Shown here piece by piece: positions 38,803 through 55,204 of a stretch of 64,000 bases of DNA. The position numbers and the translations under genes were made by a program. The DNA comes from Oceanobacillus senegalensis. Lineage in GTDB: Bacteria; Bacillota; Bacilli; Bacillales; Amphibacillaceae. The stretch spans positions 2,410,718 through 2,474,717 of the forward strand of contig NZ_LT839648.1 of the NCBI RefSeq assembly GCF_900176885.1, in the 5' to 3' direction. Position 1 is the first letter of the stretch. Each line of letters opens with the position of its first letter. The notes under the pieces are model-generated. The model saw only the letters and a list, made by a program, of their open reading frames with translations. It had not been told where the DNA came from and made no database searches.

Positions 38803-38847
38803 CGCATTTCTCTCCTTTATAACTAAATTAGACAGAAGTTTGCCGTG

Positions 38848-39015: not shown

Positions 39016-39230
39016 GTGTAATCCCTCCTTTCCTTTTATTATGAGAAGAGAGAATGGAAATATGCGTTAACTGATTGAAGAGGAATAGTTTCCTCTCAAC
39101 ACACACATAAGGCAAAAAACTCACCACCATGTTAGGTAATGAGCCAATTTAAGAGAGATTTTCAATTAGAGATTTATATCAGCGGTAAAAAAGGTAAAGA
39201 AGTACCCTTCCCCACTCGACTTTTCCCTCC

Positions 39231-39386: not shown

Positions 39387-39470
39387 AATAAAATCGCCTC
39401 CCATGTTTAAAATGCCCAGAAGAATGTTTCTCATGAATCAAAATTAGGAGTCTATTTCTGTATCCTAAAC

Positions 39471-39508
39471 AAAAAAACCTGCAAAACCTTACACACAAGG
39501 TTTTACAG
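39471..39508 (-). terminator. Terminator after the ATP-sulfurylase homologue
   Basis: CTG-AAAACCTT pairs with AAGGTTTT-CAG (39479-39508, one mismatch), with T7 on the minus strand (rc of 39471-39477). Confidence 0.85.
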
Positions 39509-39533
39509 ATTTTTCAAGCAAAACTAGATATCC

Positions 39534-41243
39534 CTAGCTTCGATAACGGTCATATGGCATTGGATTCCATGTCCGATAGTCGAGATCTTTTTCACGTAAT
39601 GGCGACGGAATATCATCGAAAATTTTATTCGCGACCTCTAATTCACGCTCGGCTTCCCCTCTATCTTGATACATATACTCATCCGAGGCTTTCTCTGGCG
39701 CCTGTTTCACTTTTTCCTCCAAATACTCAACAACCATTTCCTGCTGTTTATGCATAGACTCTCGAGCATCGGCTACCCAATCTGGCTGTGCGGAACGAAG
39801 GGTATCCGTTACATAACTAAATTCATTGAAGATTTCCTTATAAATTCGATCAGCATTCGACCGAGCATCCATAACCGCTGTCTCTAAATCCTCAATCGTT
39901 AGTTCCTCTACCTGAAGAGCTTCATTTCGTTCAGGTCCCCCTAAACGAGAACGATGTAAGTAGTATGGGAAAATACTTTTTATCGTTTTTCCAACCGGTC
40001 TAACTGCTTGATTATACTCATCTACCCCTTTTGGTTGTACACCTTGCATCGCAATTCGTGCTGATTCTGGTCGAACAATTTCCTTCGGTGGTAGAACACC
40101 ATAACGCAAAAGCTCCCGAATTCCTGTACCAGAAATATTAATTCGATACCGATCATCATGTGGGCAGGTTTGATCTGTTGCCGGGCTATCACACCGCGTA
40201 CAATAAAATACCTCATGGAAAAGCCGTATATCAATGCCTAACTCATCCGCTGTAAATTCATCAAAAATAGAATGTGCTGCATATTTATCATAAAAATCGC
40301 CAATTCCTGCGTGATCTCGGCCAATCAGGGCATGGGTACAGCCATAGTTTTTCATAATTAGGGCATGTAGAACCGCCTCACGAGGCCCTGCAAAAATATA
40401 TGTCACCCGTAATGGCGCGAGCATGGTTCTATCTTTCGGGTAATAGGTATCTAACACACTACGGTAGGATAGCATACGGAACTCATGTCTTGTGTATTCC
40501 CGTTTTGCCATTTCCACAAGAGGCTGAACAAACAAACCATCCATTTCTTCTAAGGCATTTCGGTGAATATACTCATGTCCCCTGTGTAAAGGGTTTGCAC
40601 CTGTAATAAATCCGCCAACCGAATGGAATTTCTTCTCCTCATAAAATAACTTCCACGTATCTTTCGGTTCCATTCTTATATTTTCAAACGGACCCCAATG
40701 TACTCGGCGAAGCAATTGAATCGGACCACCTAATGCCGTATCCCCCATCCTCCGGTAAATTGAATCGACACCAGGGTGGCTGCGGTCTGTCGTGCCGAAA
40801 AGATTAGAAGCACGAAAATCCCGATCATAATGAAAAATATCATCTAATTTAAGGATGGCAACAGGCTCTTTTGTCTCATCTGCAAGGGCTACTTCATCAC
40901 CGACAGATAAGGTTTTAATAATCTCCTTGTTGCGGTCACCAATTGGCGCAAAGCTCAGTGGAACAGGCCAAACGACTCCATTTTTTAAACGACCTTCCGT
41001 AAGAACGGACTTATAATCCTCCTCCACCATAAAACCTTCATTCGGAGACAACACACCAGTAGCGATCATCTCCAGCGTAATGACAGCCTCCAAATCCACC
41101 ATGATCATTGGCAGCTTCTTCGCTCTTTCCATCGCCTCTTCGCATTCTTCCCCTGTAAGAACACGATTCACTAATTTCCCACCATGTGGCTGTTGTGGAT
41201 AGCTTACGAAATTTTCTTCATTTAGTACAAATTCTTTAGTCAT
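39534..41243 (-). CDS. ATP sulfurylase (Sat) homologue with altered active site and long C-terminal extension
   Basis: 569 aa, versus about 380-400 for ordinary bacterial Sat. Residues 1-400 follow the Sat fold: LSPNEGF, the HxGH-type loop NPLHRGHE (217-224), IGRDHAGIGDFY (307-318), a zinc site C348/C351/C360/H362 as in thermophilic Sat, and GTGIRELLRYGVLPPKEIVRPE (373-393). However, the canonical QTRN before the histidine loop, which binds sulfate and ATP, reads ITGAN here with one extra residue. Residues 400-569 form a charged helical extension with no match that I know. No cysC/cysH genes are nearby. Sulfate may not be the substrate; it is clearly an adenylyl/nucleotidyl-transferase fold. 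Confidence 0.75.
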   Translation of the reverse strand: MTKEFVLNEENFVSYPQQPHGGKLVNRVLTGEECEEAMERAKKLPMIMVDLEAVITLEMIATGVLSPNEGFMVEEDYKSVLTEGRLKNGVVWPVPLSFAPIGDRNKEIIKTLSVGDEVALADETKEPVAILKLDDIFHYDRDFRASNLFGTTDRSHPGVDSIYRRMGDTALGGPIQLLRRVHWGPFENIRMEPKDTWKLFYEEKKFHSVGGFITGANPLHRGHEYIHRNALEEMDGLFVQPLVEMAKREYTRHEFRMLSYRSVLDTYYPKDRTMLAPLRVTYIFAGPREAVLHALIMKNYGCTHALIGRDHAGIGDFYDKYAAHSIFDEFTADELGIDIRLFHEVFYCTRCDSPATDQTCPHDDRYRINISGTGIRELLRYGVLPPKEIVRPESARIAMQGVQPKGVDEYNQAVRPVGKTIKSIFPYYLHRSRLGGPERNEALQVEELTIEDLETAVMDARSNADRIYKEIFNEFSYVTDTLRSAQPDWVADARESMHKQQEMVVEYLEEKVKQAPEKASDEYMYQDRGEAERELEVANKIFDDIPSPLREKDLDYRTWNPMPYDRYRS

Positions 41244-41615
41244 TTATTCTCCTCCCCCAGTTTTAAAAATCTATTCCTTACATAATCTATGAAAAAATCT
41301 GGATGTTCATTAAACGAAATTTTCAGAAACCATTTCTAACATATATATATGTAAAAATAGGTACTACTATAACTGGGATTGTTATTTAATAGTGTCTTTT
41401 ATGGTCGAACTTAGCCTATGCCACAGTAACCATTTCTTTATATCTTTATTAACCACTAGTTTTCCAGTATGAAAGTCTTCCGTGATTCTTGGAATATTCA
41501 AATGAAAGATACCCGTACACGAAATAGTTCAGATTCGAAGTCATCACTTCTTATAAAGCGGCTCCTTCTGACATTCGAATAAGAAGAAACTTGAATAATG
41601 TGTGTACATAATCAA
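41244..41615. other. Gene-free gap
   Basis: AT-rich sequence between the Sat homologue and the frameshifted zinc-knuckle gene. I see no riboswitch (no S-box) and no supported ORF. Confidence 0.45.
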
Positions 41616-41806
41616 TCAGTTTTTAATAGACTTTGACAGGTAATTCAACTTTCTATCATAATTTTTTATCGATGGCTTTTCCGCTTTTCTACCCTTCCTT
41701 TTGCAATCTTTACAAAGATGCTGACGATGACCTTTCCACTAAACTTTTCATTTGGACGAAATCTCCCACATGCTTTACAGTAATGACCTCGCTTCTTTTT
41801 TCCCAT
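41616..41806 (-). pseudogene. Frameshifted small zinc-knuckle protein
   Basis: ATG 41806 (AAGGAG 8 nt upstream) starts MGKKKRGHYCKACGRFRPNEKFSGK, the conserved head of a small Firmicute zinc protein (CxxC, C10/C13). After SGK the frame loses its second cysteine pair and stops at 41666. Reading one frame over from the GGAAAGG at about 41731-41737 restores GHRQHLCKDCKRKGRKA, the expected second CxxC, and runs to a TGA at 41616. One missing G explains it. A sequencing error or programmed frameshift are alternatives. Confidence 0.65.
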
Positions 41807-41892
41807 TAATACATCTCCTTGATTTGACATTGCAAAAATCCGATCCCTAGACACCCACTACATTAAATGTTAAACTAATAGCTTAAAATAAC

Positions 41893-41909
41893 AGTTACCT
41901 AGAGTAACT
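41893..41909. promoter_or_regulatory. MarR-type operator upstream of marR-MFS
   Basis: AGTTAC-CTAGA-GTAACT is a 6-5-6 dyad centred about 29 bp before the marR start, the usual position for MarR autoregulation. Confidence 0.6.
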
Positions 41910-41929
41910 ATTTTAAGGAGAGAATTCCT

Positions 41930-42349
41930 ATGCTGACCGCTCAAAAGTTCTTTCACCAGCTTATATTGCTATATCGTCCTTTTGAAAATCAACTAAATGC
42001 ACAGTTAAAAAAGCATCAATTACACCGAGCTCAATGGACGATTTTATATTCCCTATATAACCATGGACCTGCAACACCTGTAGAAATTTCTCATTATCAG
42101 GGGGTAGAAAAACCCACTATAACAAGGACGGTTCACCGCCTTGAAGAATTAGAGTATGTAGAGCGTGTTTCTGGTAAGGATAAGCGAGAAAAACGAATTC
42201 AGCTGACGCAAAAGGGCAAGAAAATCTATGAAAGTGTACGTGTCTCCATTAATCAATTAGAAAGAGAGATTTTAAAAGGAATCTCTAAAGAAGAACAGCT
42301 AGAGACCATTTGTATTATGGAAAAAATAAGAAATAATATTTTAGAGTAA
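41930..42349 (+). CDS. MarR-family transcriptional regulator
   Basis: 139 aa. Winged helix: AQWTILYSLYNHGPATPVEISHYQGVEKPTITRTVHRLEELEYVERV, wing DKREKRIQLTQKG. AAGGAGAG precedes ATG 41930. It lies 12 bp upstream of an MFS transporter gene on the same strand and just after a dyad. I infer that it represses this two-gene unit and responds to a compound exported by the transporter. Confidence 0.9.
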   Translation: MLTAQKFFHQLILLYRPFENQLNAQLKKHQLHRAQWTILYSLYNHGPATPVEISHYQGVEKPTITRTVHRLEELEYVERVSGKDKREKRIQLTQKGKKIYESVRVSINQLEREILKGISKEEQLETICIMEKIRNNILE

Positions 42350-42361
42350 GGTGATGTATAC

Positions 42362-43564
42362 GTGAATCAATCAAAACCGAAATTGTGGACGAAGGATTTT
42401 ATTATCATATCGTCTGCCAATTTTTTCTTATACTTAGTCTTTTATTTATTACTCGTAACGATGGCTGTCTATGCAGTAGAGCAATTTAATGCTTCTGAGA
42501 GCCAAGGCGGACTTATTACCGGTATTTTTATTATCGGAACATTAATCGGACGACTATTTTTAGGACGATTGATTACCACTATCGGTAACAAAAAAATGCT
42601 CTATTTTGGACTCATTTTTTTCATTCTAACTACTGCTTTCTATTTTATCGATACTGGAATCACTGTTCTACTTATTACCCGTTTCTTACACGGTATCGCA
42701 TTAGGTATGGCAAGTACGGCAACAGGAACAATTGTAGCCGGGGTAATACCTGAGAGTCGCAAAGGGGAAGGTATCGGGTTCTTTAGTATGAGCGTGACCC
42801 TTGCAACAGCCATTGGTCCATTTGTCGGAATTTATTTAAGTCAGCATACCAGCTATCAAAGCATTTTTGGATTTTGTCTTGCATTAGGAATCATTAGCTT
42901 GATCATTTCATTTTTTATTCATGTACCCGTTGTGAAAAAGCCTGAAAAAAGCCCGGAATCAAAAAAACTTAAACTATCTCATTTTATCGAACCAAGGGCA
43001 CTGCCAGTTGGAATCGTAGTCGTGATTGTATCTATCTGCTATTCTAGTGTTCTATCATTTATTAATTTTTATGCCATTGAGATTAATTTGGTCGATGCAG
43101 CAAGTTTCTTTTTTGCAGTCTACGCCGTAGCCATATTGGTGTCACGACCTTTTACAGGACGATTAATGGATGTAAAAGGCGCAAACTGGGTCATGTATCC
43201 AGCCTTTCTTCTATTTGGGGCAGGGCTACTACTTTTAAGTATGACAGAAACCAGCACCCTTCTATTATTAGCCGGTGCCTTAATGGGATTCGGTTTCGGT
43301 AATATGCAATCAACCACACAGGCAATTTCGGTTAAGGTAACACCACCACATCGTGTGGGATTAGCAACGTCAACATACTTTATCGCCCTTGATGCTGGAC
43401 TTGGCTTTGGACCATATCTCCTTGGATTCATCATTCCATTAACTGGATATCGAAATCTTTATATAATCATGGGGGTACTGGTACTCGTTACAATGATCCT
43501 TTATTACCTGTTATATGGTAGGAAGGAGTATGCTAGTTTGAGAGAAGCTGATGTAGCTTCGTGA
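42362..43564 (+). CDS. MFS transporter
   Basis: 400-aa, 12-helix major facilitator with the motif A loop GRLFLGRLITTIGNKKMLYFG (about 62-82) and the motif C-like segment GFFSMSVTLATAIGPFVGIY (about 138-157), which suggests a drug/metabolite efflux pump (DHA1-like). The start is GTG 42362 with an AAGGTGAT site overlapping the end of marR. A terminator follows. Substrate unknown. Confidence 0.9.
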   Translation: MNQSKPKLWTKDFIIISSANFFLYLVFYLLLVTMAVYAVEQFNASESQGGLITGIFIIGTLIGRLFLGRLITTIGNKKMLYFGLIFFILTTAFYFIDTGITVLLITRFLHGIALGMASTATGTIVAGVIPESRKGEGIGFFSMSVTLATAIGPFVGIYLSQHTSYQSIFGFCLALGIISLIISFFIHVPVVKKPEKSPESKKLKLSHFIEPRALPVGIVVVIVSICYSSVLSFINFYAIEINLVDAASFFFAVYAVAILVSRPFTGRLMDVKGANWVMYPAFLLFGAGLLLLSMTETSTLLLLAGALMGFGFGNMQSTTQAISVKVTPPHRVGLATSTYFIALDAGLGFGPYLLGFIIPLTGYRNLYIIMGVLVLVTMILYYLLYGRKEYASLREADVAS

Positions 43565-43582
43565 TGAATATATAGGGTAAAC

Positions 43583-43626
43583 AAGAAATAGCCACCGCCT
43601 TTTTTATTGAGGGAGGGCTATTTCTT
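43583..43626. terminator. Bidirectional terminator between MFS and tetR genes
   Basis: AAGAAATAGCC (43583-43593) pairs with GGCTATTTCTT (43616-43626), enclosing a weaker CCxCC/GGGAGG stem. Confidence 0.8.
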
Positions 43627-43635
43627 ATAAACAAC

Positions 43636-44238
43636 CTATTCTTTCACATAAAAAACCTCCGTAGCCGTTACCATAAGCTCAACAATTTGCTTGGACATAT
43701 ATTCAGGAGATGTTGAAAAGTCTTCTTCAATCCAACGTATAATTAACCCTGCAACACCGTGGGCACGGTAAATGTATAGCCATTTCGGATTAAGCTGTGT
43801 CCCCTCCTCTAATTCATATCGATACTCCGTGATGAACAAATCTTCAATCGCCCTTGCCATTTGATGGCGAAAGTCTACACGAATGTGGTTACTTAATAAC
43901 AGTTTGAAAAGATTCCCATTTTCCTTGAAGTATCCAAACAAGGTAATATCTTCTATATCCATTTCTTTTAAATTCACTTTATTAATCGCTTTATAAGGAT
44001 TGCGTATTTGCTCAATCATTTCAGTTAATACATCCTGAATTACTTCATTTAGCAAATTTTCCTTCGATTTAAAATTGGCATAAAATGTTCCTCGATTATA
44101 ATTTGCTTCTCTTACAATTTCGGATATTGTTATGTCTTCGAAGTATTTTTGATAAAGCAATGTTAAAAAAGCCTGTTTAATGTCTGACTGAGAACGTTGA
44201 ACTCGCTTATCGAGAAACTGTTTCAATTCCTTACTCAC
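43636..44238 (-). CDS. TetR-family transcriptional regulator
   Basis: 200 aa from GTG 44238, with GAGGATGAG just upstream; the open frame continues to 44415 but would run into the divergent promoter and has no site. N-terminal HTH: IKQAFLTLLYQKYFEDITISEIVREANYNRGTFYANFKSKENLL (about 17-60). The C-terminal ligand domain is of the TetR_C group with FKENGNLFKLLLS. It is divergent from an SDR gene and close to a dyad at 44284-44306, which suggests control of that gene. Confidence 0.88.
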   Translation of the reverse strand: MSKELKQFLDKRVQRSQSDIKQAFLTLLYQKYFEDITISEIVREANYNRGTFYANFKSKENLLNEVIQDVLTEMIEQIRNPYKAINKVNLKEMDIEDITLFGYFKENGNLFKLLLSNHIRVDFRHQMARAIEDLFITEYRYELEEGTQLNPKWLYIYRAHGVAGLIIRWIEEDFSTSPEYMSKQIVELMVTATEVFYVKE

Positions 44239-44283
44239 CTCATCCTCAGTATCATTGATTCGACAAAATCCTTCAACTTTAAC

Positions 44284-44306
44284 GTACAAAATGTATTTAT
44301 TTGTAC
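44284..44306. promoter_or_regulatory. TetR-type dyad in the tetR/SDR divergent region
   Basis: GTACAAA-N9-TTTGTAC is a 7-9-7 inverted repeat about 46 bp before tetR and 97 bp before the SDR gene. A related ACAAA/TTTGT pair follows at about 44315-44330. Confidence 0.6.
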
Positions 44307-44402
44307 AAAAACGAACAAAATAACATTTGTTGATTATTGAGTTTGGAAAACGGATAGGTATATAGTGAAGATGAAGAAACATTAATTTAGGGGGTAAACG
44401 AA

Positions 44403-45173
44403 ATGACATTTCCAATTTTAGAGGATAAAGTTGCCATTGTTACAGGTGCTGCAATGGGTATGGGGAAAGAAACAGCGAAACTATTTGCTGAAGCAAAAGC
44501 AAAAGTTGTAATAGCTGATTTTAATGAAGAAAAAGGGAATGAAACCGTAAATGAAATTAAAGAAGCTGGTGGAGAAGCAGCTTTTGTTAAAGTAGATGTT
44601 TCTAAATCCGAACAAGTACAAGCTATGGTGAAATTCGCAGCAGATACGTATGGAAAATTAGACGTAGCTGTCAATAACGCCGCACTGACTCCAGATGACA
44701 AACCGGCTGCCGAATTTGATGAAGATTATTGGGATCGTTTAATCTCTGTTGATTTAACAGGTACAGCTCTCTGTCTAAAATATGAATTACAGCAGATGGA
44801 AAAACAAGGTAATGGTGGATCCATTATTAATATTTCTTCTGTAAGTGGCTTCCGTCCACAACCAAAAAACATTGCTTATGTTGCTGCCAAACATGGTGTC
44901 GTTGGAATGACAAAAGTCGCTGCATTAGAATATGGCTCACAAAATATTCGCGTGAACTCTGTGGCTCCAGGCGCTATTGATACACCTATGTTACGTGGTG
45001 CATTAGAACAGTTTAATTTAACAGAAGAAGAATATGCTCCACAACTAAGCTTACTAAACCGTTTCGGTCAACCAAGAGAAATTGCACAAGCAAGTCTTTG
45101 GCTAGCATCCGATGCATCTTCCTACGTGACAGGTACAACCATTCATGCAGATGCTGGTTATACTTCTCGTTAA
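44403..45173 (+). CDS. Short-chain dehydrogenase/reductase
   Basis: 256-aa classical SDR. TGAAMGMGKE (14-23) with ADF after strand 2 suggests NAD(H) preference; NNAAL, INISSVSG, catalytic YVAAK and the C-terminal LASDASSYVTGTTIHADAGY of the cyclohexanol/gluconate-dehydrogenase-like SDRs are present. Substrate unknown. Divergent from a TetR regulator, so it is probably inducible. GGGGG site before ATG 44403; the gene ends directly at a GGGACGGTTC motif and terminator. Confidence 0.88.
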   Translation: MTFPILEDKVAIVTGAAMGMGKETAKLFAEAKAKVVIADFNEEKGNETVNEIKEAGGEAAFVKVDVSKSEQVQAMVKFAADTYGKLDVAVNNAALTPDDKPAAEFDEDYWDRLISVDLTGTALCLKYELQQMEKQGNGGSIINISSVSGFRPQPKNIAYVAAKHGVVGMTKVAALEYGSQNIRVNSVAPGAIDTPMLRGALEQFNLTEEEYAPQLSLLNRFGQPREIAQASLWLASDASSYVTGTTIHADAGYTSR

Positions 45174-45242
45174 GGGACGGTTCTATAGGGTTTATTATAC
45201 AAAAGTGCGTAGTAATTTCTCTTTACTCCGCACTTTTTGTAT
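45174..45242 (+). terminator. GGGACGGTTC half-repeat followed by terminator
   Basis: GGGACGGTTC starts at the base after the SDR stop. It is followed by a long stem (ATACAAAAGTGCG-AGTAA 45197-45215 with 45223-45242). Confidence 0.8.
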
Positions 45243-45283
45243 ATTATTTATCAATCTTTTACCTTTCAATCAGCAAAAAACAA

Positions 45284-45607
45284 TCATTTATTTAGAAGTT
45301 GGCTAGATTGATAATTCGATAACAGCCACTCCACAACATCTAATTTATTTTCTTCACCTATTTCATGTTCCGTTTCATAGGTTTTATATAGGACGTAGGC
45401 ACCCTCTTCTTTAAAAAACTCGTAATTTTGCTGGCCAACCTTTGGTGGAAAAATAGGATCAAGCTCACCATCTGTTAAGAAAACAGACAAATATGTGACC
45501 GGCTTCACTTGATATCTCTCTTTCATAAACGATGGAACATAGCCATTCATGGAAACAATTCCCCGGAGCATGGGATATTCCTTAACTTCCGTTCGATTTT
45601 CAGGCAT
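45284..45607 (-). pseudogene. C-terminal remnant of an alpha/beta-hydrolase (carboxylesterase/phospholipase type)
   Basis: The 107-codon frame covers only the back half of a serine hydrolase: RGIVSMNGYVPSF, the acid region VFLTDGELDPIFPP and the catalytic histidine in YETEHEIGEE. The N-terminal half with the GxSxG nucleophile is absent, and no trace of it is readable in 45608-45990. No ribosome site precedes ATG 45607. I read it as a decayed gene; its truncation lies at the left border of the Nudix-helicase module. Confidence 0.6.
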
Positions 45608-45989
45608 TTTTACTTCATAGTAAAATGTTTTATGGACAAGCTCTCACCCTTCACTCTTACTTTAAATCTTTAAGTTAAACTTATTTTTACTGATAGAACC
45701 ATTGTAAACTTCCCTATTACAATATCTAGTCTTCACTAGACATAGAATATACCTAACGGGGTTAGAGTAATCAATAATTTCATTTACCTTAAAAGATTAG
45801 AACCACTTTAATATTGAAGAAGGTTTTAAACCTTTTAGTATTTCTTGGAGATTTTTTGGTCTATTTTCATTATATATCTTCATAGAATTTAGCTTATCAT
45901 TTATGATATTATGGTATCCTTATTTTTAGAATTACATAAAATTATTAATAAGGGGAAAGGTAACCTTTCTAAGAGATCCGGAGGTTATT
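45608..45989. other. AT-rich gap left of the Nudix-helicase module
   Basis: No ORF. TCTAGT-CTTC-ACTAGA forms a small dyad at 45725-45740. The Nudix promoter should lie in the last 100 bp. The gap marks the boundary between decayed and intact genes. Confidence 0.45.
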
Positions 45990-46382
45990 ATGAAAAAAAA
46001 TATTCACGTAGTAGGGGCAATAATTATTGAAAGAGGTAAAATATTATGTGCACAACGAGGGCCTAATAAGACACTACCATATATGTGGGAATTCCCTGGA
46101 GGAAAAATAGAAAAGGGAGAAACTGCTGAGCAAGCATTAAAGCGAGAAATAAAGGAAGAAATAAAATGTAAAGTTGATGTTAGGGAAAAATTTGCATACA
46201 CCATACACGAATATGAGTTTGGGATTGTTCATCTAATCACATATATATGCAAACTAATAACGGGAGAACCCGAGTTAACCGAACATTTACAGACAAAGTG
46301 GTTAAAAAAAGAAGAACTTTCATCATTAGATTGGGCACCAGCGGACATTCCTACTATCGAAAAATTAATTAATAAGTATTAA
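45990..46382 (+). CDS. Nudix hydrolase (MutT-like) of the helicase module
   Basis: Predicted hydrolase of a nucleoside diphosphate derivative such as an oxidised or modified NTP, 130 aa. The Nudix box is complete: GGKIEKGETAEQALKREIKEE (from G37; Gx5Ex7REUxEE). The head HVVGAIIIERGKILCAQRG is typical of the MutT/CTP-pyrophosphohydrolase group. GGAGG precedes ATG 45990. The next gene starts 24 bp after its stop on the same strand, so the two are co-transcribed; the pairing suggests that it makes or removes a nucleotide signal or protects the pool during helicase action. Housekeeping MutT is the alternative. Confidence 0.9.
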   Translation: MKKNIHVVGAIIIERGKILCAQRGPNKTLPYMWEFPGGKIEKGETAEQALKREIKEEIKCKVDVREKFAYTIHEYEFGIVHLITYICKLITGEPELTEHLQTKWLKKEELSSLDWAPADIPTIEKLINKY

Positions 46383-46406
46383 GTGTTAGAAAGAGGTGCG
46401 ACTATC

Positions 46407-49400
46407 TTGAAAGAGGGCATCTATGAGGAAATAATTAATATAAAGATGAAAGAAAAGTTGGATTTATTTGATATAAAAGATTTCCAGTTAGAAAAGGAAA
46501 CTTTAGATGTAGAAGAAGCTCGTAAGTTTTTGTCTTCTTATATCTCTAATGTAACAAGAAAAGCCCTTCAATACCTAAGAGACAAAGAAACTAACGACAA
46601 AGAGGCTTTATTAAAACAAATAAAAGCGTGTAATGAATTAATTATTACTTTAAGCCAACAATTAGATGAAGAAGAATTTGAACGGTTACAGATTGATGAT
46701 AAAGGAGAAGTTCTCCATTCCATTTATTCCAAAATAAATTCAGTTAAAGGGATAAAAAAAGAGAAACCGATTCGGCCTGTTACCCCTATATCAGAAAGCA
46801 CTCTTTTTACCGGTTCTAAAAGTGAGCCTGATATGCTTAGTGAGTTAAAAAAAGAAATATTATCATCTGATCAGCTTGATTTTCTAGTTTCATTTGTAAA
46901 GTGGAGTGGTATTCGCTGTATTATAGAAGAATTAAAAGCATTTACAGAAAACGGGGGAAAACTTAGGGTTATTACGACTTCCTATATGGAAGCAACGGAT
47001 TATAAGGCAATCATCGAACTAAGTAAATTGAAAAACACAGAGATAAAGATATCATATGATATAGATCGTACCCGCCTTCATGCAAAAGCATATATGTTTA
47101 AACGGGAAACAGGTTTTACGACAGCATACATAGGGTCATCCAATCTCTCAAATCCCGCCTTAACCTCTGGACTAGAATGGAATATGAAGGTCACAGAAAA
47201 GGATTCCCCGGATATCATTAGAAAATTTGAAGCGACTTTTGAAAGTTATTGGAATGATGGTGAATTTAAAGATTTTAAAGGTGACGAGGAAGCAAGTAAA
47301 AGAAAATTAAAACACGCATTAAGCAGGAAAAAACAACTAGTAGAAAACGACATCCACTTCAAATTAGACATACAGCCCTATCACTACCAAAAAGAAATGT
47401 TAGACAATTTACAAGCTGAAAGGGAAGTCTTTGGAAGAAATAGAAATTTACTAGTTGCAGCTACCGGTGTAGGAAAAACCGTTATCTCAGCCTTCGACTA
47501 TAAAAAGTTCATACAAAAAAACACAAATAATACGAAATTACTTTTCGTTGCACATCGAGAGGAAATATTAAAGCAAAGTAGAGATACATTTAGAGCTATT
47601 CTAAAAGACTTTAATTTTGGTGATTTATTGGTAGGAGGTAGCACTCCTAATTCACTTGATCACTTATTTGTTAGTATACAATCCTTTAATAGTATGAATT
47701 TACATGAGAAGGTAACAGATGATTTTTATGACTTTATTATAGTAGACGAATTCCATCATGCTGCAGCGAATTCATATCAAACTTTATTAAGCTATTTCAA
47801 ACCTAAAATACTGTTGGGTTTAACAGCAACTCCTGAAAGAATGGATGGACAAGATATTACAAAGTATTTCGACGGGAAGATTGCTTCTGAAATGAGGCTA
47901 ACGGAAGCTATTGACAGAAAGCTTTTAAGTCCATTTCAGTACTTTGGAGTTAGTGACACAGTTGATTTGTCTTCACTTAAATGGAGCAGAAAAGGCTATG
48001 ACTTGAAAGAATTAGAAAATGTATATACGAATAATAGAATTCGTAGTAATCAAATAATTAATAGTTTATATAAGTACGTCACAGATATAGATGATGTCAA
48101 AGGACTCGGATTCTGTGCTGGAATAGAACATGCTAAATACATGGCGCAAGTTTTTAATGAGAGAAATATCCCTGCCGTAGCGTTACATGGGGATTCAGAC
48201 AAAGAAGTAAGGAGAAGTTCACAACGTAAATTATCAGCAGGAAAGATAAGTTTTATCTTCGTCGCTGACCTCTATAATGAGGGTGTTGATATACCAGACG
48301 TCAACACTATTCTATTCTTACGTCCTACTAATAGTCTAACTGTCTTTCTTCAACAACTAGGGAGAGGATTAAGACTAGCTGAGGGAAAAGAATGTCTTAC
48401 TGTTTTAGACTTTATTGGACAAGCCCATAAGAAATATAATTTTGAAGAAAAGTTCCGCACACTAGTTGGGAAAACAAAACATTCCATAGAGTATTATGTT
48501 GATAATGGATTTTCAGATTTACCAAGAGGAAGTTTTATCTTACTGGAAAAACAGGCAAAGGAATATGTTCTTAGGAATATTAAGGCATCTAAAAATACAA
48601 AACAAAATTTAATTAACAAAATGAAAACTTTTGAACAAGACACTGGATTAGAACTTACTTTATTTAATTTTCTAAATCACAACAACTTATCTCTATATGA
48701 CTTTTATGGAAGAAACGGTAATCGTTCATTCCAACGCATGATGGTTGAAGCTGGTTTAAGTCAAGATTTTTTCTGTGAAAACGAAGATAAAATAGTTAAA
48801 AGGTTTCACAAATTATTTCCATTAAATTCAAAAAAAATTCTAGACTTCTTCATTAAATATGTTCAAACAGCTGGAGAATATCATATAAAAAATAAAGAAG
48901 AAAAATTAATGGAAAATATGTTATATTATTCTTTTTATAAAAAAGAGCCATCGAAAGAAGGTTTGGCTACAATTAATGACGGTTTAAAGAGAATTTTCGA
49001 AAATAAACATATTCAAATGGAAATCCTTCAGATACTAGAATTTAGTTACTATTCAATTAAAACAATAGAAATTGAAAATGAGTTTGATTTCATCACACCT
49101 TTAACTGTCCACTCTACTTATACCAAGGAACAAATAATGGCGGCGTTAGGATATTTTAATGAAGAAAAGTGCCCTGCATTTAGGGAAGGGGTTAAACATT
49201 TCAAAGATAAGAAATTAGACATATTTTTTACTACGCTAAACAAGTCAGAGAAAGATTTTTCACCATCAACATTATACGAAGATTACGCAATAAATGAGGA
49301 ATTATTTCATTGGCAAACACAGAGTACATTAACGGAGTCAAGTAGAACAGCACAAAGGTATATTAATCATAAGTCATTAGACCATAAAATAGCCTTATTT

Positions 49401-49565
49401 GTTAGGGAATATAAACAAGAAAATGGATACACAGCACCATTTACATTTTTAGGAACGTGCGACTATGTAAGCCATTCAGGAGAAAAACCTATTAGTTTTA
49501 TATGGAGACTAAAAAATCAATTACCACCAGAACTACTGCCTAAGGCCAATAAAAGTATTATCTAG
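46407..49565 (+). CDS. PLD-domain / SF2 helicase / DUF3427 protein
   Basis: 1052 aa from TTG 46407 (GAGGTG 8 nt upstream; an in-frame GTG at 46383 is the other option). Order (numbering from TTG): helical N-terminal region (1-125); phospholipase-D-like nuclease domain (about 145-285) with the HxK motif HAK at 225-227 and GSSN at 243-246; SF2 helicase core with Walker A AATGVGKT (351-358), DEFH box (447-450), TATPERMDG (473-481), and helicase-C motifs LHGD, NEGVDIP and QLGRGLR (650-656); C-terminal DUF3427 region ending with ELFHWQTQ, ALFVREYKQ, FTFLGTCDYVSHSG. This multidomain family resembles type III restriction-like enzymes and occurs sporadically. Nucleic-acid surveillance or anti-phage defence is inference. 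AT-richer than its neighbours. Confidence 0.88.
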   Translation: MKEGIYEEIINIKMKEKLDLFDIKDFQLEKETLDVEEARKFLSSYISNVTRKALQYLRDKETNDKEALLKQIKACNELIITLSQQLDEEEFERLQIDDKGEVLHSIYSKINSVKGIKKEKPIRPVTPISESTLFTGSKSEPDMLSELKKEILSSDQLDFLVSFVKWSGIRCIIEELKAFTENGGKLRVITTSYMEATDYKAIIELSKLKNTEIKISYDIDRTRLHAKAYMFKRETGFTTAYIGSSNLSNPALTSGLEWNMKVTEKDSPDIIRKFEATFESYWNDGEFKDFKGDEEASKRKLKHALSRKKQLVENDIHFKLDIQPYHYQKEMLDNLQAEREVFGRNRNLLVAATGVGKTVISAFDYKKFIQKNTNNTKLLFVAHREEILKQSRDTFRAILKDFNFGDLLVGGSTPNSLDHLFVSIQSFNSMNLHEKVTDDFYDFIIVDEFHHAAANSYQTLLSYFKPKILLGLTATPERMDGQDITKYFDGKIASEMRLTEAIDRKLLSPFQYFGVSDTVDLSSLKWSRKGYDLKELENVYTNNRIRSNQIINSLYKYVTDIDDVKGLGFCAGIEHAKYMAQVFNERNIPAVALHGDSDKEVRRSSQRKLSAGKISFIFVADLYNEGVDIPDVNTILFLRPTNSLTVFLQQLGRGLRLAEGKECLTVLDFIGQAHKKYNFEEKFRTLVGKTKHSIEYYVDNGFSDLPRGSFILLEKQAKEYVLRNIKASKNTKQNLINKMKTFEQDTGLELTLFNFLNHNNLSLYDFYGRNGNRSFQRMMVEAGLSQDFFCENEDKIVKRFHKLFPLNSKKILDFFIKYVQTAGEYHIKNKEEKLMENMLYYSFYKKEPSKEGLATINDGLKRIFENKHIQMEILQILEFSYYSIKTIEIENEFDFITPLTVHSTYTKEQIMAALGYFNEEKCPAFREGVKHFKDKKLDIFFTTLNKSEKDFSPSTLYEDYAINEELFHWQTQSTLTESSRTAQRYINHKSLDHKIALFVREYKQENGYTAPFTFLGTCDYVSHSGEKPISFIWRLKNQLPPELLPKANKSII

Positions 49566-49883
49566 ATGAAATGATAATGGTAGAAAACAGGTGTCTCCCC
49601 TACAACTTTATAGAATAGCTAGAATAGAGGATGTGGCACCAGTTTTCTTTTTCACTATAATTTATGATTTACATGGCTGCGAACATATTAATTTATAATA
49701 ATATTTTGTGGTATCTTTAATATTTCTTTAATTAATTGAATAGTTTGGCCTACTTCTTGCCTTATTAATCACATTATAAGTAGCCTCTACTTAATCATGG
49801 ATTATTAATAGGGATGGATAAACGCTCCATCCCTATATCAAGAGTTTACGAGTCTCTTTTTTATCTAACCTCAGCCATCCCCA
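49566..49883. other. Gap right of the helicase gene
   Basis: AT-rich, with no ORF. It contains the hairpin at 49808-49836. No attachment site or direct repeat matching the left border could be recognised by eye. Confidence 0.45.
49808..49836. terminator. Hairpin between the helicase and EamA genes
   Basis: ATAGGGATGGA (49808-49818) pairs perfectly with 49826-49836. The T tract is weak on both strands, so terminator function is likely but not certain. Confidence 0.55.
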
Positions 49884-50798
49884 TCACCCATGCTCTTTCA
49901 CCATCCTCCTATACCTTATTCGGTCTGCTATCCCCGACCCTAGGATAACCCCAGTTACAATGAAAACAAACCCTAAGAAATGGGCGATTGTTATTTTTTC
50001 ACCTAAAAATAAAAACGAGCCTATCAATGCGAAAAATGGTGTTAGATTCATAAAGATGGATGATTTTCCCGGACCAATATATTGAATCGCATGATTGTAA
50101 AGGAATTGGCCAACTGCTGTTGCAAGTATAGCGGAACCAAGAAATACACTCCAGCCAAGGGCAGTTCCATCCTTCAAGCTAGAAAGGCCATTTGGCTCCA
50201 TAATCATACTTAGTAAAAATAATAAAAAAGATCCTAACATTAACGTATATCCTGTTACAAGTCTTGCTCCCATGGTTTCTGTAGCCTTTTTTATATAAAT
50301 GAAGCTGATTGCTTGTGTAAGTACAGCTAGAAAAATATAAATATCTCCGAGGTTAAACGTGAAACTAGCACCATTTCCAACAAGAATAACTAATGAAACC
50401 CCGAAAAGACCAAAAAATATACCTACCATTCGCATTATCGAAAGACGTTCCTTTAACAGGATACTTGCCAGAATGGAGGTAAACAGTGGTACTAACCCTA
50501 AAATCAAACCCGAACTAGATGCCGTTGTTTGTGTCAATCCGACTGATAGGAAGAAATGATGTCCTAAAACCCCTGTTATCGAAATTAGGGAGATATATAG
50601 AAGTTCCTTTTTCTTCGGTAGACGAATCTGTTTTTTCAAGCCTAAAATTAAAACTACAACCGTTGCAGCTAAAAATATGCGGAAGGACGTAATGGTAACT
50701 GCAGCAAATTCTCCTACAATCACTTTAATGGCAATTACATTAAATCCCCACATAACCATGACCAACATAAGCTGCCCATAAATCAGAGACTTCCCCAA
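49884..50798 (-). CDS. EamA/DMT family transporter
   Basis: 304-aa drug/metabolite transporter with ten predicted helices in two EamA repeats (about 5-140 and 150-290), ending in a basic RIRYRRMVKEHG tail. Typical segments are MWGFNVIAIKVI in TM1 and SGLILGLVPLFTSILASILLKERL at the end of the first repeat. Start TTG 50798 with AGAAGGGA upstream. Substrate unknown (RhaT/YdcZ-like exporters handle amino acids or metabolites). Confidence 0.88.
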   Translation of the reverse strand: MGKSLIYGQLMLVMVMWGFNVIAIKVIVGEFAAVTITSFRIFLAATVVVLILGLKKQIRLPKKKELLYISLISITGVLGHHFFLSVGLTQTTASSSGLILGLVPLFTSILASILLKERLSIMRMVGIFFGLFGVSLVILVGNGASFTFNLGDIYIFLAVLTQAISFIYIKKATETMGARLVTGYTLMLGSFLLFLLSMIMEPNGLSSLKDGTALGWSVFLGSAILATAVGQFLYNHAIQYIGPGKSSIFMNLTPFFALIGSFLFLGEKITIAHFLGFVFIVTGVILGSGIADRIRYRRMVKEHG

Positions 50799-51049
50799 TG
50801 AATTCCCTTCTTTCCTGTAATATTCTTATTTTCTAAACCTACTCAAATGGTAACAGATAAAGAAAGAAATTGCCCTAGAATGGTCTTATCGAAACGAACT
50901 AATTAGAGATAATTTGCTTTTTGTAGATACCTTTAAAAGGTATGTCGTATTCTGATTTTCATTCCAGATATACTTGAACTTAAAGAAACTTTAAAAGAAC
51001 ATACGATTCACCGCACTTCCCGAATTTTGCCGAATCATTTTATCCCGCG

Positions 51050-51092
51050 AAAAAGCCTTAGCATAGTAGGAATATCTACTTATCCTAAGGCT
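51050..51092 (-). terminator. Terminator after hxlB
   Basis: AGCCTTAG (51054-51061) pairs with CTAAGGCT (51085-51092), with an inner AGTAG/CTACT stem, and is followed by T5 on the minus strand. Confidence 0.88.
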
Positions 51093-51097
51093 AGTTT

Positions 51098-51655
51098 CTA
51101 TTCTAAATTGGCATGTCTACCATACATCGTATCTGATGTTAACCCTTTTTCAGACATCAACTTTAAAATGACCGCATCATAAAATAATAGAAGAGATTGT
51201 TCAAATAATGACCCCATCGGTTGTATCGATTTTTGACTGTCACCATTATCTTTTGCTTGCGCATTAATTTTGACGCTGAAATCAGCTAAATGACCAATTG
51301 GCGATTCGGGGTTAATCGTTATTAAAGCAACTTTTGCCCCAATGCTTTTCGCTTTTTCAGCCATGACAGCAAGTGTTTTCGTGCCACCTGAACCACTACC
51401 AACGATAAGTAAATCGTCTTCTTCCAAATTAGGTGTCACGGTCTCTCCAACCACATAGGCTTCCAAACCAATATGCATCATGCGCATCGCAAATGCCTTT
51501 GCCATTAAACCAGAGCGACCTGCGCCAGCCACAAATACTTTCTTTGCTTGTAAGATTTCATCCGCTAATTCTTCCAATTCTTCATCATTTATGGTGAGAA
51601 GTGACTTTTCAAGCTCCTTTAATATCGTACCTGTATAAGAAGTTTCTACTTCCAT
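51098..51655 (-). CDS. hxlB: 6-phospho-3-hexuloisomerase
   Basis: Isomerises hexulose-6-phosphate to fructose-6-phosphate, the second step of the ribulose monophosphate pathway. 185-aa SIS-domain protein with VFVAGAGRSGLMAKAFAMRMMH (about 34-55) and VGSGSGGTKT; ends EKGLTSDTMYGRHANLE, the typical PHI tail. It follows hxlA with a 1-bp gap. Confidence 0.95.
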   Translation of the reverse strand: MEVETSYTGTILKELEKSLLTINDEELEELADEILQAKKVFVAGAGRSGLMAKAFAMRMMHIGLEAYVVGETVTPNLEEDDLLIVGSGSGGTKTLAVMAEKAKSIGAKVALITINPESPIGHLADFSVKINAQAKDNGDSQKSIQPMGSLFEQSLLLFYDAVILKLMSEKGLTSDTMYGRHANLE

Positions 51656-51656
51656 A

Positions 51657-52298
51657 TTAAACAGTAACCCCTTGTTCCATCTGTTCTTTCATGCTTTTAG
51701 CTACTTCATTTTTATTTTCCTGATTAGCAATTCCACCACCAACGATAATTAAATCCGGTTGTGCATTAATTGCCTCTTGTAGGGTTTCTTGTTTGATTCC
51801 ACCTGCTATTGCTGTTTTAGCATTTTTAACCACTTCTTTAATCTTACGAAGGTCCGCAAATGAGTCTTTCCCCTCCGCTTGCAAGTCATAACCTGTATGG
51901 ACACAAATATAATCAGCTCCAAGCTTGTCTAATTCTTCTGCACGAGACTGGATATCTTTTACCCCAATCATATCTACTAAAACTTCTATTCCCTGTTTTT
52001 TCGCTTCTTCTATGGCGCCTTTAATAGAAGTATCTTCCGCTTGAGCTAGGATTGTTACAATATCTGCCCCAGCTTCTGCCGCACCAGCAACTTCATAAGC
52101 TGCTGCATCCATGATTTTTTCATCTGCCAACACTTCAAGCTCAGGAAATGCTGCCTTCATTTCTTTTACTGCACGAAGACCTTCTCTATTAATAACAGGT
52201 GTACCAAGTTCGACTATATCAATATGATCTTTTACCTCTTTTACTAACTCAATTGCTTCCTCTGTATTAACAAGATCTAATGCTAATTGTAATTTCAT
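51657..52298 (-). CDS. hxlA: 3-hexulose-6-phosphate synthase
   Basis: Condenses formaldehyde with ribulose-5-phosphate. 213 aa, OMP-decarboxylase-like TIM barrel: MKLQLALDLVNTEEA, VELGTPVINREGL, ADEKIMDAA (metal/phosphate site) and the GGGIAN phosphate loop near the C-terminus. Together with HxlB it detoxifies formaldehyde. GGGGAAAGATGA upstream of ATG 52298. Confidence 0.95.
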   Translation of the reverse strand: MKLQLALDLVNTEEAIELVKEVKDHIDIVELGTPVINREGLRAVKEMKAAFPELEVLADEKIMDAAAYEVAGAAEAGADIVTILAQAEDTSIKGAIEEAKKQGIEVLVDMIGVKDIQSRAEELDKLGADYICVHTGYDLQAEGKDSFADLRKIKEVVKNAKTAIAGGIKQETLQEAINAQPDLIIVGGGIANQENKNEVAKSMKEQMEQGVTV

Positions 52299-52489
52299 TC
52301 ATCTTTCCCCTTCCTGGAATTTGATTATATATTCACTATAAACCTAACTCTTCCATTATGTAAGTACGCACTTTAAACTCATATAGTGATAAATAGTATA
52401 CTGTGTAAAAAAATAAAGCTGTTTCTGAAGGGGGTTAGTCTTTAAGCAATATATTTAGAATGAGAATAAGCAGTATCATACTATCTTGA

Positions 52490-52530
52490 TTTTTAGAGTT
52501 ACTGCACATTTTCCTTCAACAGCGAGCTAA
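52490..52530. repeat. Orphan end of the terminal-inverted-repeat element
   Basis: TGATTTTTAGAGTTACTGCACATTTTCCTTCA-like sequence matches the right end of the element at 61229-61268 over about 40 bp, including 12 of the 14 terminal bases. No left end is nearby. Confidence 0.55.
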
Positions 52531-52552
52531 AAAGCAACAATATATACGAAAA

Positions 52553-52591
52553 AAGCCAAAAAAATAAGTATAGTGCACCTTCGCACTATAC
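52553..52591 (-). terminator. Terminator after hxlR
   Basis: GTATAGTGC (52568-52576) pairs with GCACTATAC (52583-52591); a T-rich run follows on the minus strand. It separates hxlR from hxlAB. Confidence 0.88.
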
Positions 52592-52969
52592 CTATTTACT
52601 AGCACTTTCTTTTATCACAATGTCATGCGTTAACGATTCTTCTAAATAATCTTTATAAGACCTTCCCCAGTCATACATCTGTTCAAGGATAGGCATCAAC
52701 GTTTTCCCTTGAGGCGTTAAGGAATATTCCACTTTGGGTGGGACGACAGGATAGACTTCCCTATGAACGATCAAATCAGATTCCAGTTCACGGAGTTGTG
52801 TAACAAGCATCCTTTGGGTAATCCCTGGTATCATTCTTTTTAGTTGATTAAACCGTATAGTACCTTCCTTCCCCAAATGCCAAAGGATGATCATTTTCCA
52901 TTTACCGCCAATCACCTCTAATGTAAGTTCTTTTTCACAATTGTACTGCTTCTCACATACATGACCCAA
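52592..52969 (-). CDS. hxlR: HxlR-family transcriptional activator of hxlAB
   Basis: 125 aa, HxlR winged-helix family: [47 protein letters not shown], and the wing [17 protein letters not shown]10 in NCEKE is the conserved N-terminal cysteine region that senses formaldehyde in B. subtilis HxlR. In B. subtilis hxlR is divergent from hxlAB; here all three are on one strand, with a terminator between. Confidence 0.9.
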
Positions 52970-52987
52970 TCTATCTGCTCCCCCTCT

Positions 52988-53011
52988 TATAGTATACTTT
53001 TTGATACTATA
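52988..53011. promoter_or_regulatory. HxlR-type dyad before hxlR
   Basis: TATAGTAT-N8-ATACTATA (52988-52995 and 53004-53011) contains AGTATACT (52991-52998). The same 8-mer palindrome occurs before hxlA at 52395-52402, so one regulator may bind both. Confidence 0.5.
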
Positions 53012-53101
53012 TACTTAATAAACATCTACTAATAACTAGTATACCAAAACAAAGCCAATATCCCAAATAAACAACCGCCCTATGAGCCATCACCCTGCTT
53101 A

Positions 53102-54097
53102 TCACTTAACAGCCACTACATCAACCAATACTTCCTTCACTGCCTGAATAATATCTTCTACCTGTGGCACGGCAGCTTTCTCTAAATCCGGACTAAATGG
53201 AACAGGAACAGCTTCTCCACCTAGGCGTTTTATGGGCGCAGCCAGGTGATAAAATGCTTCACTTTCAGCAACCATGCTAGCAATTTCTCCACCAAATCCT
53301 CCTCGTTTTACTGCTTCATGAACCACGACAAGGTGACGGGTTTTCATCACTGATTGAATGATGGTTTCTTCGTCCAACGGTACAAGTGTTCTTGGATCAA
53401 TTACTTCGACATGAATACCTTCTTTTTCTAATTCAGCTGCAGCGTCTAATGCTCGATGTACCATTATTGCGGTAGCAACGATCGTTACATCCATACCTTT
53501 GTGTTTGATATCTGCTTTACCTAATGGAATACAATAGGGCTTTTCTGGCACTTCGCTCTTTGTTTTATACAATAGCTTATGCTCGTAAAAAATCACCGGA
53601 TTGTCATCATCTATCGCTGCCTTTAATAATCCTTTTGCATCATAGGCTGTAGAAGGCTGCACCACTTTTAATCCCGGAATATGAGCAACCCATGCTTCTA
53701 AACTTTGCGAATGCTGGGCAGCTGCTCCAGTTCCAGATCCACTAGGCGTTCTTAAGAGCAATGGAACCTTCCCTTTTCCACCATACATATACCGTATTTT
53801 AGCAGCTTGGTTCACCAGTTGATCCATGGCAATCGTGATAAAGTCAGAGAATTGCAGTTCTATAATGGGACGCATTCCGGTAAGAGCGGAACCCACCGCT
53901 ACTCCAGCAATTGCCACCTCACTAATTGGAGTATTACGCACACGTTCTGGACCGAACTCTTCTATCATTCCCTTTGTGACACCGAAGCCACCACCATATA
54001 CGCCAATATCTTCTCCCATTAAAAATACATCATCATTTTTTCGCATTTCTTGACTCATTGTTTCTCTCACTGCTTCAAGATAAGTTAGTTCTCTCAA
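53102..54097 (-). CDS. acoB: Acetoin/pyruvate dehydrogenase E1 component, beta subunit
   Basis: 331-aa transketolase-like beta subunit of a TPP-dependent 2-oxoacid/acetoin dehydrogenase: [63 protein letters not shown] and the C-terminal [14 protein letters not shown]. Closer in style to AcoB than to PdhB. It lies 12 bp after the alpha subunit gene. No E2 or E3 gene follows within the window. Confidence 0.85.
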
Positions 54098-54109
54098 AAG
54101 TGCTCCCCC

Positions 54110-55081
54110 CTATGCATAAACATCTGTTAGCAGCTCATCTTTGGGTGGCATCGGACTATTCTTCGCAAACTCTACGGCAGCATCAATCTCTTGATTTGCT
54201 TCTAGTACGAGTGCTTTTGCCTTTTTCTTTGTTAAAATTCCTTCCTCCACTAACACCTTTTCAAATCGGATGATAGGATCTTTTTTACGCCATTCCCTTT
54301 CTTCTTCATGCGTACGATATTTCAAGCCATCACTCTTTGAATGTCCCTTCCATCGATACGTTTTAGCCTCTATCAAAGTAGGCCCTCCTCCTTTACGCGC
54401 TCGTTCAGTTGCTTTATAAGTTTCATTCATTACCTCGATTAGGTCATTCCCATCTACTATGACACTTGGAATTCCGTAAGCAAGCGCCCGTTCTGCAATA
54501 TGTTCAATATTTACCATTTCAGATATTGAACTAGACATCCCATATTGATTATTCTCACAGAAAAACACAACGGGTAAATCCCATATCGACGCCAGATTAA
54601 CTGCCTCATGAAAACTCCCTTCATTCGTAGCACCATCACCAAAAAAACAGACCGTAACATAGTTAAGTTTCTTCATATGAGCAGTAAGGGCTGCTCCAAC
54701 GGCTAACGGTATTCCACCACCAACAATTCCATTCGCGCCTAAATTTCCACGATCTAAGTCAGCAATATGCATTGATCCTCCTTTCCCCTTACAGTAGCCT
54801 GTTATTTTTCCAAACATCTCAGCCATCATCTTATCCACGTAGGCCCCTTTAGCAATGGAATGACCATGACCTCGGTGGGTACTCGTTATTTTATCCGCAT
54901 CTTTTAATACAGCACATGCTCCCACAGCGGTAGCTTCCTGCCCAACCGATAAATGGGTAGTACCATGCATAAGGCCTTTAGCAAAAAATTGTTCTAACCT
55001 TTCATCAAAAAGCCGAATAAGCCACATTTGCTTGTAAAGATGTATGAGTTTTTCGCTTGATATATCCGGAATGAGTTTCAT
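54110..55081 (-). CDS. acoA: Acetoin/pyruvate dehydrogenase E1 component, alpha subunit
   Basis: 323 aa with the TPP motif [31 protein letters not shown] and the [13 protein letters not shown] / [28 protein letters not shown] segments of AcoA-type E1 alpha. ThDP-dependent decarboxylation or acetoin cleavage in complex with the beta subunit. A terminator-like hairpin separates it from the thi genes upstream. Substrate (acetoin versus a 2-oxoacid) is by similarity only. Confidence 0.85.
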
Positions 55082-55127
55082 CCGTTTAACCTCCTATTCG
55101 AATAGATTCTCTCTTTCACTCAAATAA

Positions 55128-55167
55128 CCCCAGCCCAACTGTTCAAACATACAGCATAGGACTGGGG
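55128..55167 (-). terminator. Hairpin after thiF
   Basis: CCCCAG-CC (55128-55135) pairs with GG-CTGGGG (55159-55167, one mismatch). It follows the thiF stop by about 40 bp; the T stretch is weak. Confidence 0.5.
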
Positions 55168-55204
55168 ATAGATAACCTAAGACAGTTATAAAGTGATTAT
55201 TCTT

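Follow-up and report, generated by a model that had tools for sequence, protein, structure and literature searches.

Known systems and the two-gene locus

Type IV restriction enzymes are generally regarded as lone genes without need of an antidote, the host lacking the mark that is attacked. SauUSI of Staphylococcus aureus (PDB 7clg) is built from a PLD nuclease domain with an HxK motif, an SF2 ATPase, a coupler and an SRA target recognition domain, and ATP-dependent cleavage of S5mCNGS DNA is characteristic of its type. In this study we analyzed a window of 64,000 nucleotides from Oceanobacillus senegalensis (contig NZ_LT839648.1, positions 2,410,718 to 2,474,717), in which the gene of a Nudix hydrolase is followed by that of a large protein with the same parts in the same order. 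The Nudix is a member of the PADLOC candidate family PDC-S07, which was co-localised (within 20 genes) with type IV restriction-modification genes in 23 of 23 occurrences in Streptococcus suis (PMC12813430) and is listed in S. thermophilus (PMC11514479). The accessible part of the S. suis source files it as a candidate, without a mechanism or a link to 5-methyl-dCTP, SRA-HNH enzymes or Vsr (PMC12813430). No printed mechanism for its linkage to type IV restriction was found in the open literature searched, a scope that leaves out most subscription journals and bioRxiv preprints; the accessible part of PMC7159879 draws no link between Nudix proteins and type IV restriction, and the SauUSI paper has zero occurrences of nudix or mutT.

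The large protein is assigned by its sequence to the SauUSI family of type IV restriction enzymes, which depend on 5-methylcytosine (5mC) or 5-hydroxymethylcytosine (5hmC), and its architecture is already known. The helicase is thus of a known kind. What is notable is its partnership with the Nudix, a variant that is real, keeps recurring and suggests a mechanism. Our best reading, and a reasonably probable one, is that the Nudix is a nucleotide-pool guard preventing self-restriction by its SauUSI-like partner, with a substrate and a protective role that we infer. The features of the pair are as follows.

45990..46382, + strand: Nudix hydrolase, 130 amino acids (aa), PDC-S07 family, NudG-like or 5-methyl-dCTP hydrolase-like, predicted pool guard (Pfam, PADLOC, NCBIfam, alignment, tree)
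46407..49565, + strand: SauUSI-family type IV restriction enzyme by homology, 1052 aa (Pfam, PADLOC, SauUSI alignment, Foldseek)
46407..46808, + strand: N-terminal 134 aa preceding the first SauUSI-aligned residue, predicted helical (alignment, structure model)
46914..47252, + strand: PLD nuclease domain, HxK motif HAK at 47079-47087 aligned with HAK (His119) of SauUSI (Pfam, alignment)
47370..48377, + strand: SF2 ATPase with ATGVGKT, DEFH, TATPER and QQLGRGLR, all aligned with SauUSI (Pfam, alignment)
48849..49538, + strand: DUF3427, the coupler end plus a predicted SRA-fold target recognition domain, the SRA part at about 49080-49541 (Pfam, separate C-terminal model)

The initial annotation, made from the letters alone, had described a complete Nudix gene followed after 24 bp by a protein of about 1052 aa joining PLD, helicase and DUF3427 parts, and the open reading frames (ORFs) and Pfam agree with it in coordinates and anatomy. 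The Nudix gene ends with TAA at 46380-46382, and the protein has a Pfam NUDIX domain. Its Nudix box (46101..46169, + strand) reads G38-X5-E44-X7-R52-E53-I-K-E56-E57-I-K-C and is complete except that the usual last G is K. The best start of the large gene is TTG 46407, with a Shine-Dalgarno-like aaagaggtg (46390-46398) eight bases ahead of it, inside the gap 46383..46406; an alternative in-frame GTG at 46383, immediately following the Nudix TAA, would yield a protein of 1060 aa. In this longer numbering the Pfam domains PLDc_2 (178-290), ResIII (330-486), Helicase_C (562-665) and DUF3427 (823-1052), the four suggested at first sight, are all above cut-off.

The large protein belongs with SauUSI

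A PADLOC search, as had been proposed, returned mREase_IV at 1.1e-228 for the large protein and PDC-S07 (model PDLC04899) at 1.1e-57 over residues 1-128 for the Nudix. Residues 143-1033 of the large protein align with 33-921 of SauUSI (6.1e-88), which is also its best Foldseek match, with 24% identity in the structural alignment. The His and Lys of HxK are identical in 14 of 14 aligned proteins. Of the four 5mC-pocket residues named for SauUSI, two (Asp858 and Trp868) have counterparts in the alignment as read, again identical in 14 of 14, and two (Tyr831 and Met829) fall in a gapped stretch and read differently. The full-length AlphaFold model is only of modest confidence (pLDDT 72, pTM 0.50), and claims on the C-terminus therefore rest on a separate C-terminal model. 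This model predicts an SRA fold, that of 5mC readers, for the DUF3427 end, as in a SauUSI-type enzyme. The protein is predicted to destroy invading DNA with methylated cytosine. Unlike SauUSI, it has 134 aa rather than 32 before the first aligned residue, and is thus about 100 aa longer at the N-terminus. This extension (46407-46808) is predicted helical and is retained in the aligned relatives. The closest relative in a contig search, from Oceanobacillus halophilus, is 84% identical over nearly the full length.

Mokosh systems also join helicase and PLD functions. The window protein differs in having a ResIII-type helicase core with an SRA reader, in the order PLD-helicase-SRA, and a Mokosh-like or wholly new helicase fusion is rejected on the strength of the full-length SauUSI homology in the PADLOC, 7clg and Foldseek matches. 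None of the 21 PADLOC families matched carries the name Mokosh, in a release that may or may not contain such a model. Of the initial idea of a defence-like module, the defence type and a real, patchy linkage of Nudix and helicase stand, and the unclassified or Mokosh-like fusion gives way to a SauUSI-family enzyme.

The Nudix recurs beside SauUSI-like genes

To survey the linkage, 398 genomes were drawn evenly from the phylum (Bacillota, as deduced from relatives). DUF3427 gave 50 matches in 48 genomes, and PDC-S07 gave 129 in 122 genomes at E<=1e-20. A Nudix lies within 500 bp of 21 of the 50 DUF3427 matches, against about 0.06 adjacent pairs expected by chance in a rough estimate, so that the Nudix-helicase linkage does recur in other genomes. 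Three gene orders were found: the Nudix is downstream on the same strand in eight pairs, upstream on the same strand in seven, and downstream on the opposite strand in six. A Nudix of the family is present in 36 of the 48 DUF3427 genomes versus 86 of the 350 others; when genomes with adjacent pairs are removed, the count is 15 of 27 versus 86 of 350 (p 0.001, uncorrected for kinship). SauUSI-like genes also lie farther off in L122 (1.7 kb), L123 (2.4 kb) and L124 (14 kb), and a fragment of one is beside the Nudix in L173; these four loci are not in the adjacency counts.

Among 58 relatives, own genome included, there are 27 Nudix matches of at least 90 bits, of which 16 have a SauUSI-like match no more than 1.1 kb away; none of the 73 weaker Nudix rows entered has one within 5 kb. 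Seven of 15 near full-length helicase relatives have a Nudix in the sequence stretch examined, and the two genes are found together on plasmids of Hymenobacter canadensis and Lactiplantibacillus plantarum. The linkage is real, recurrent and patchy, and it is not obligatory.

S. aureus SauUSI itself has a Nudix of the family directly upstream. In S. aureus DNA filed as a phage record, a Nudix ORF (L231, 3508-3909), which shares 58% identity with that of the window, stops 1 bp short of a 953-aa ORF (3911-6772) matching the SauUSI chain 7clg at E 0. The contigs concerned, L230 and L231, may or may not be host DNA; NZ_CP077890, a record named as an S. aureus plasmid, carries the same stretch at 98.5% DNA identity. 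PDB 5X1X is 97% identical to this SauUSI-adjacent Nudix.

Two distinct SauUSI-like proteins are close together in L109 (6784-8403 and 9204-12350), L011 (5287-6870 and 8001-11150) and L014 (8001-11150 and 14288-15895), and L109 and L014 have no Nudix in the stretch examined. On the L. plantarum plasmid (L229, 5001-8636) the Nudix and the SauUSI-like helicase are followed by a 106-aa protein with the annotation nucleotide pyrophosphohydrolase, which may be another pool-cleaning enzyme of this operon.

The same Nudix family joins SRA-HNH and Vsr nucleases

The stretches around all 108 Nudix matches not within 500 bp of DUF3427 were inspected. Six of these Nudix proteins are C-terminal domains of 412-488-aa proteins, and the N-terminal part of the four fusions scanned matches PADLOC mREase_IV in four and Pfam HNH in three. 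Eight more abut (gap of at most 129 bp) an ORF detected with a profile built from this N-terminal part, with HNH in six and SAD_SRA, below its curated cut-off, in four of the eight. A ninth abutting case, L103, comes from outside the sample. A profile of 11 such SRA-HNH-type proteins matches the HNH part of 6ghc (5-methylcytosine-specific restriction enzyme A) at 5e-29 and ScoMcrA (5zmm) across SRA and HNH at 7e-19. The PDB title calls ScoMcrA phosphorothioation-dependent, and these relatives may thus read 5mC or another mark. SRA-HNH enzymes of the McrA, TagI and ScoMcrA kind, absent from the window, are a second, unrelated class of 5mC-type nuclease partnered with the same Nudix family, by fusion or adjacency; they differ from the window enzyme in nuclease fold and in lacking a helicase. 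On a strict count, 35 of the 129 sampled family members are within 500 bp of DUF3427 or SRA-HNH-linked.

Vsr is a nuclease acting in the repair of the mismatches that arise when 5mC is deaminated. In Collinsella aerofaciens (L133, 5998-6987) a PDC-S07-family Nudix is fused to a Vsr endonuclease in one 329-aa protein.

The tight gene spacing and the fusions of the SRA-HNH class would also suit a regulatory function, in which the Nudix removes a nucleotide controlling the ATP-dependent nuclease or binds the nuclease directly. We consider this very improbable: a shared regulatory nucleotide is hard to reconcile with the finding of no ATPase domain in 10 SRA-HNH-type proteins scanned with Pfam, and the substrates of the characterized relative 3GWY (below) point elsewhere.

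Other modification-dependent nucleases beside the unlinked Nudix genes were sought with PADLOC and Pfam in 148 of 163 neighbouring ORFs (within 400 bp, at least 90 aa), in a list without the seven loci in which BLAST missed the Nudix at the threshold used. SauUSI-kind mREase_IV models matched two members, among the 25 of 58 PADLOC and 25 of 127 Pfam families listed, and rarer families may have been missed. In L103 (5784-8813) a Nudix, a protein of SRA-HNH type and a helicase of the Schlafen group that matches PDC-S41 are consecutive, with overlaps of a few bases. Other Nudix fusions are with a 2-thiouracil desulfurase domain (L124, 16332-17135) and with a glyoxalase domain (L120, 5017-5781). 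On a Treponema saccharophilum plasmid (L134, 4595-6417) the Nudix overlaps an AbiLi-like ATPase gene; two cytosine methyltransferases and an endonuclease of the Eco47II family are encoded nearby.

Predicted substrate of the Nudix

The nearest solved structures by sequence are 5X1X (149 bits) and 3GWY (88 bits). The latter is a hydrolase of 5-substituted (d)CTP from Bacteroides fragilis (Q5LBB1, Q5LBB1_BACFN), for which the available part of PMC5158307 gives kcat/Km values of 6.7e6 for 5-Me-CTP, 4.8e6 for 5-Me-dCTP and 4.4e6 for 5-hydroxymethyl-dCTP, with 5-OH-dCTP hydrolysed about 50-fold less well and canonical NTPs much more poorly. Its two modified deoxynucleotides carry the same two marks that SauUSI cuts in DNA. 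E. coli NudG (Orf135) also hydrolyses 5-methyl-dCTP, according to the parts seen of PMC3744803 and PMC5158307.

A Nudix tree of 151 rows was constructed, in which forks are often weak, the protein being short; alignment and tree omit four adjacent loci whose stretch does not reach the Nudix, and some adjacent sample pairs were also not entered. 3GWY forms a group (99/92) with L138 and L056, both SauUSI-adjacent; its identity is 54% to the former and 53% to the latter. Trp115, shared by the window Nudix and 3GWY, is found in 25 of 28 SauUSI-adjacent rows versus 17 of 101 unlinked rows. The residue at the position of MutT Asn119 sets base choice. At this position the window Nudix has Asp119 (46344..46346, + strand), which aligns with Asp in NudG and 3GWY and with Asn in MutT, and Asp is present in all 44 rows linked to a restriction enzyme or Vsr. 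In the same 44 of 44 aligned rows E44, R52, E53, E56 and E57 of the Nudix box are conserved, and the window protein thus has both the box glutamates and the Asp of the 3GWY and NudG kind. By analogy with the characterized relative, the window Nudix likely hydrolyses 5-methyl-dCTP and 5-hydroxymethyl-dCTP. Along the tree the SauUSI-adjacent label requires 16 changes, at least 13 of them forced by well-supported branches, and the SRA-HNH-adjacent label nine, at least seven of them forced, with gain and loss indistinguishable in both.

Plain MutT housekeeping is retained as a rival, in which the Nudix is an ordinary MutT-type sanitizer of oxidized nucleotides that travels with defence genes and has no joint function with them. 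We judge it quite unlikely. The majority of sampled family members are unlinked to any restriction gene found, many such proteins are named 8-oxo-dGTP diphosphatase in source annotations, and the window flanks show no defence genes, all of which would suit a sanitizer. However, the choice of partners contradicts it: the pairing comes in three arrangements of the genes and involves two unrelated classes of nuclease, fusions included, and the weaker Nudix rows stay away from SauUSI-like genes altogether. Moreover, the window Nudix scores 90.2 bits with the NCBIfam MutT model TIGR00586, under the cut-off of 97.9, and has the Asp of NudG and 3GWY in place of the MutT Asn.

A separate close-knit Nudix clade occurs in five same-genus genomes (L097-L099, L101, L102) with similar-sized neighbouring ORFs. 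No SauUSI-like or SRA-HNH gene was found in the stretches around these Nudix genes, and the clade is perhaps a housekeeping copy of the family.

Proposed protection against self-restriction

The pool-guard reading builds on features observed directly, namely the domain make-up, the aligned catalytic motifs, the modelled SRA fold, and linkage in several gene orders and to two unrelated 5mC-type nuclease classes. A host without 5mC marks could afford a nuclease that shreds 5mC-DNA. Nucleotides with 5mC or 5hmC may nevertheless arise from degraded methylated foreign DNA, from uptake and salvage of 5-methyldeoxycytidine or from phage enzymes; polymerase would insert them into the chromosome, which would then be attacked by the cell's own restriction enzyme. 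By cutting the modified triphosphates to the monophosphate, the Nudix would break this loop of self-attack and fill the protective part played by the methyltransferase in ordinary restriction-modification. The common denominator would be the same modified cytosine, met in DNA by the nuclease and in the precursor pool by the Nudix. With a nuclease predicted to depend on 5mC or 5hmC in DNA and a Nudix predicted to remove the corresponding dCTPs, self-protection would be the simplest role for the two together.

The main rival, though an unlikely one, takes the same chemistry and directs it at phages: the Nudix would starve phages with 5mC- or 5hmC-DNA of modified dCTP, so that they are hit either in the pool or in the DNA, and an effect of the Nudix alone would be predicted. 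The activity of 3GWY and the tree serve this account equally, some relatives are near genes matching Dnd and other defence models, and PMC10742078 reports phage kinases for which 5-methyl-dCMP and 5-hydroxymethyl-dCMP are substrates. However, less modified dCTP would mean less mark for the partner nuclease, and the two proteins would then oppose each other; the Vsr fusion also fits better with hygiene of the cell's own 5mC.

Several findings weigh against the pool guard. The best NCBIfam match of the window Nudix by E-value is NudG (NF007834), at 100.4 bits and below the cut-off of 156; missing both this cut-off and that of MutT, it is classed as neither. Its identity is just 39% to 3GWY, 38% to NudG, which sits on a long branch elsewhere in the tree, and 36% to MutT. 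Asp119 is also found in 96 of 101 unlinked rows and thus marks the family, not the linkage. 3GWY takes the ribonucleotide 5-Me-CTP at least as well, and so is not specific for DNA precursors in the data available from PMC5158307. A host source of 5-methyl-dCTP in these bacteria would have to be assumed; enzymes cleansing it are described from E. coli (Orf135) and mammals. In SauUSI, Met829 and Tyr831 are proposed to fill the cavity of the flipped base and contact the methyl group, and these positions read Glu and Val in the large protein, in an uncertain gapped stretch. Among the sampled genomes, 29 of 50 DUF3427 matches are without a Nudix within 500 bp (contig borders may account for a few of these), 12 of 48 DUF3427 genomes are without any family member at E<=1e-20, and 94 of 129 family members are neither within 500 bp of DUF3427 nor SRA-HNH-linked. 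Nine of nine further SauUSI-like plasmid loci also have no Nudix within 4 kb.

A more general and more tentative proposal is that modification-dependent restriction may have a self-protection gene of its own, not a methyltransferase but a pool-guard Nudix destroying 5-methyl- and 5-hydroxymethyl-dCTP. Two or more unrelated classes of 5mC-cutting nuclease, and in one case Vsr, would have acquired it time and again, either as an adjacent gene or as a fused domain, and SauUSI, which has been studied as a one-gene system, would be one half of a two-gene system. If this is true, self-attack through misincorporated 5mC or 5hmC would be a real cost of type IV immunity, and the marks hydrolysed by the Nudix would predict those read by the nuclease. 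The unexplained candidate PDC-S07 becomes a hypothesis about an enzyme and its substrate that can be tested directly. SauUSI, which the title of PMC7913695 calls a major barrier to gene transfer, gains a possible partner.

Genomic neighbourhood of the pair

A defence neighbourhood, which the first inspection had proposed to look for, was found only in part. Ten of ten flanking window genes, scanned singly, gave no PADLOC match at 1e-10, and the window copy therefore does not sit in any defence island that can be recognised. In a set of 114 ORFs flanking the pair in the window and in 11 relatives, one or two each match models of DndB, DndC, DndD, DpdE or NERD-UvrD. In none of five same-genus loci tested is a flanking gene of the window found beside the pair, which speaks against a conserved position. 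Of the observations named at the outset as refuting the module, none was made outright. Relatives of the window EamA gene (72-77% identity, four genomes) were compared in stretches of about 3.9 kb, from which all of the other 12 window genes tested are absent, and thus no clean empty site was found.

The lower guanine-plus-cytosine content noticed earlier is genuine and moderate in size, with 32.3% across 45990-49565 versus 37.5% (38000-45989) and 39.7% (49566-58000). The neighbouring gene was correctly seen as a decayed esterase: a 107-aa ORF (45284-45607, - strand) matches just positions 129-205 of the 217-position Abhydrolase_2 profile, and this fragment adjoins the module and is no part of it. 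Rfam detects two thiamine pyrophosphate (TPP) riboswitches and two Bacillaceae-1 RNAs in the window, at 37272-37371, 59147-59257, 23667-23730 and 31508-31574.

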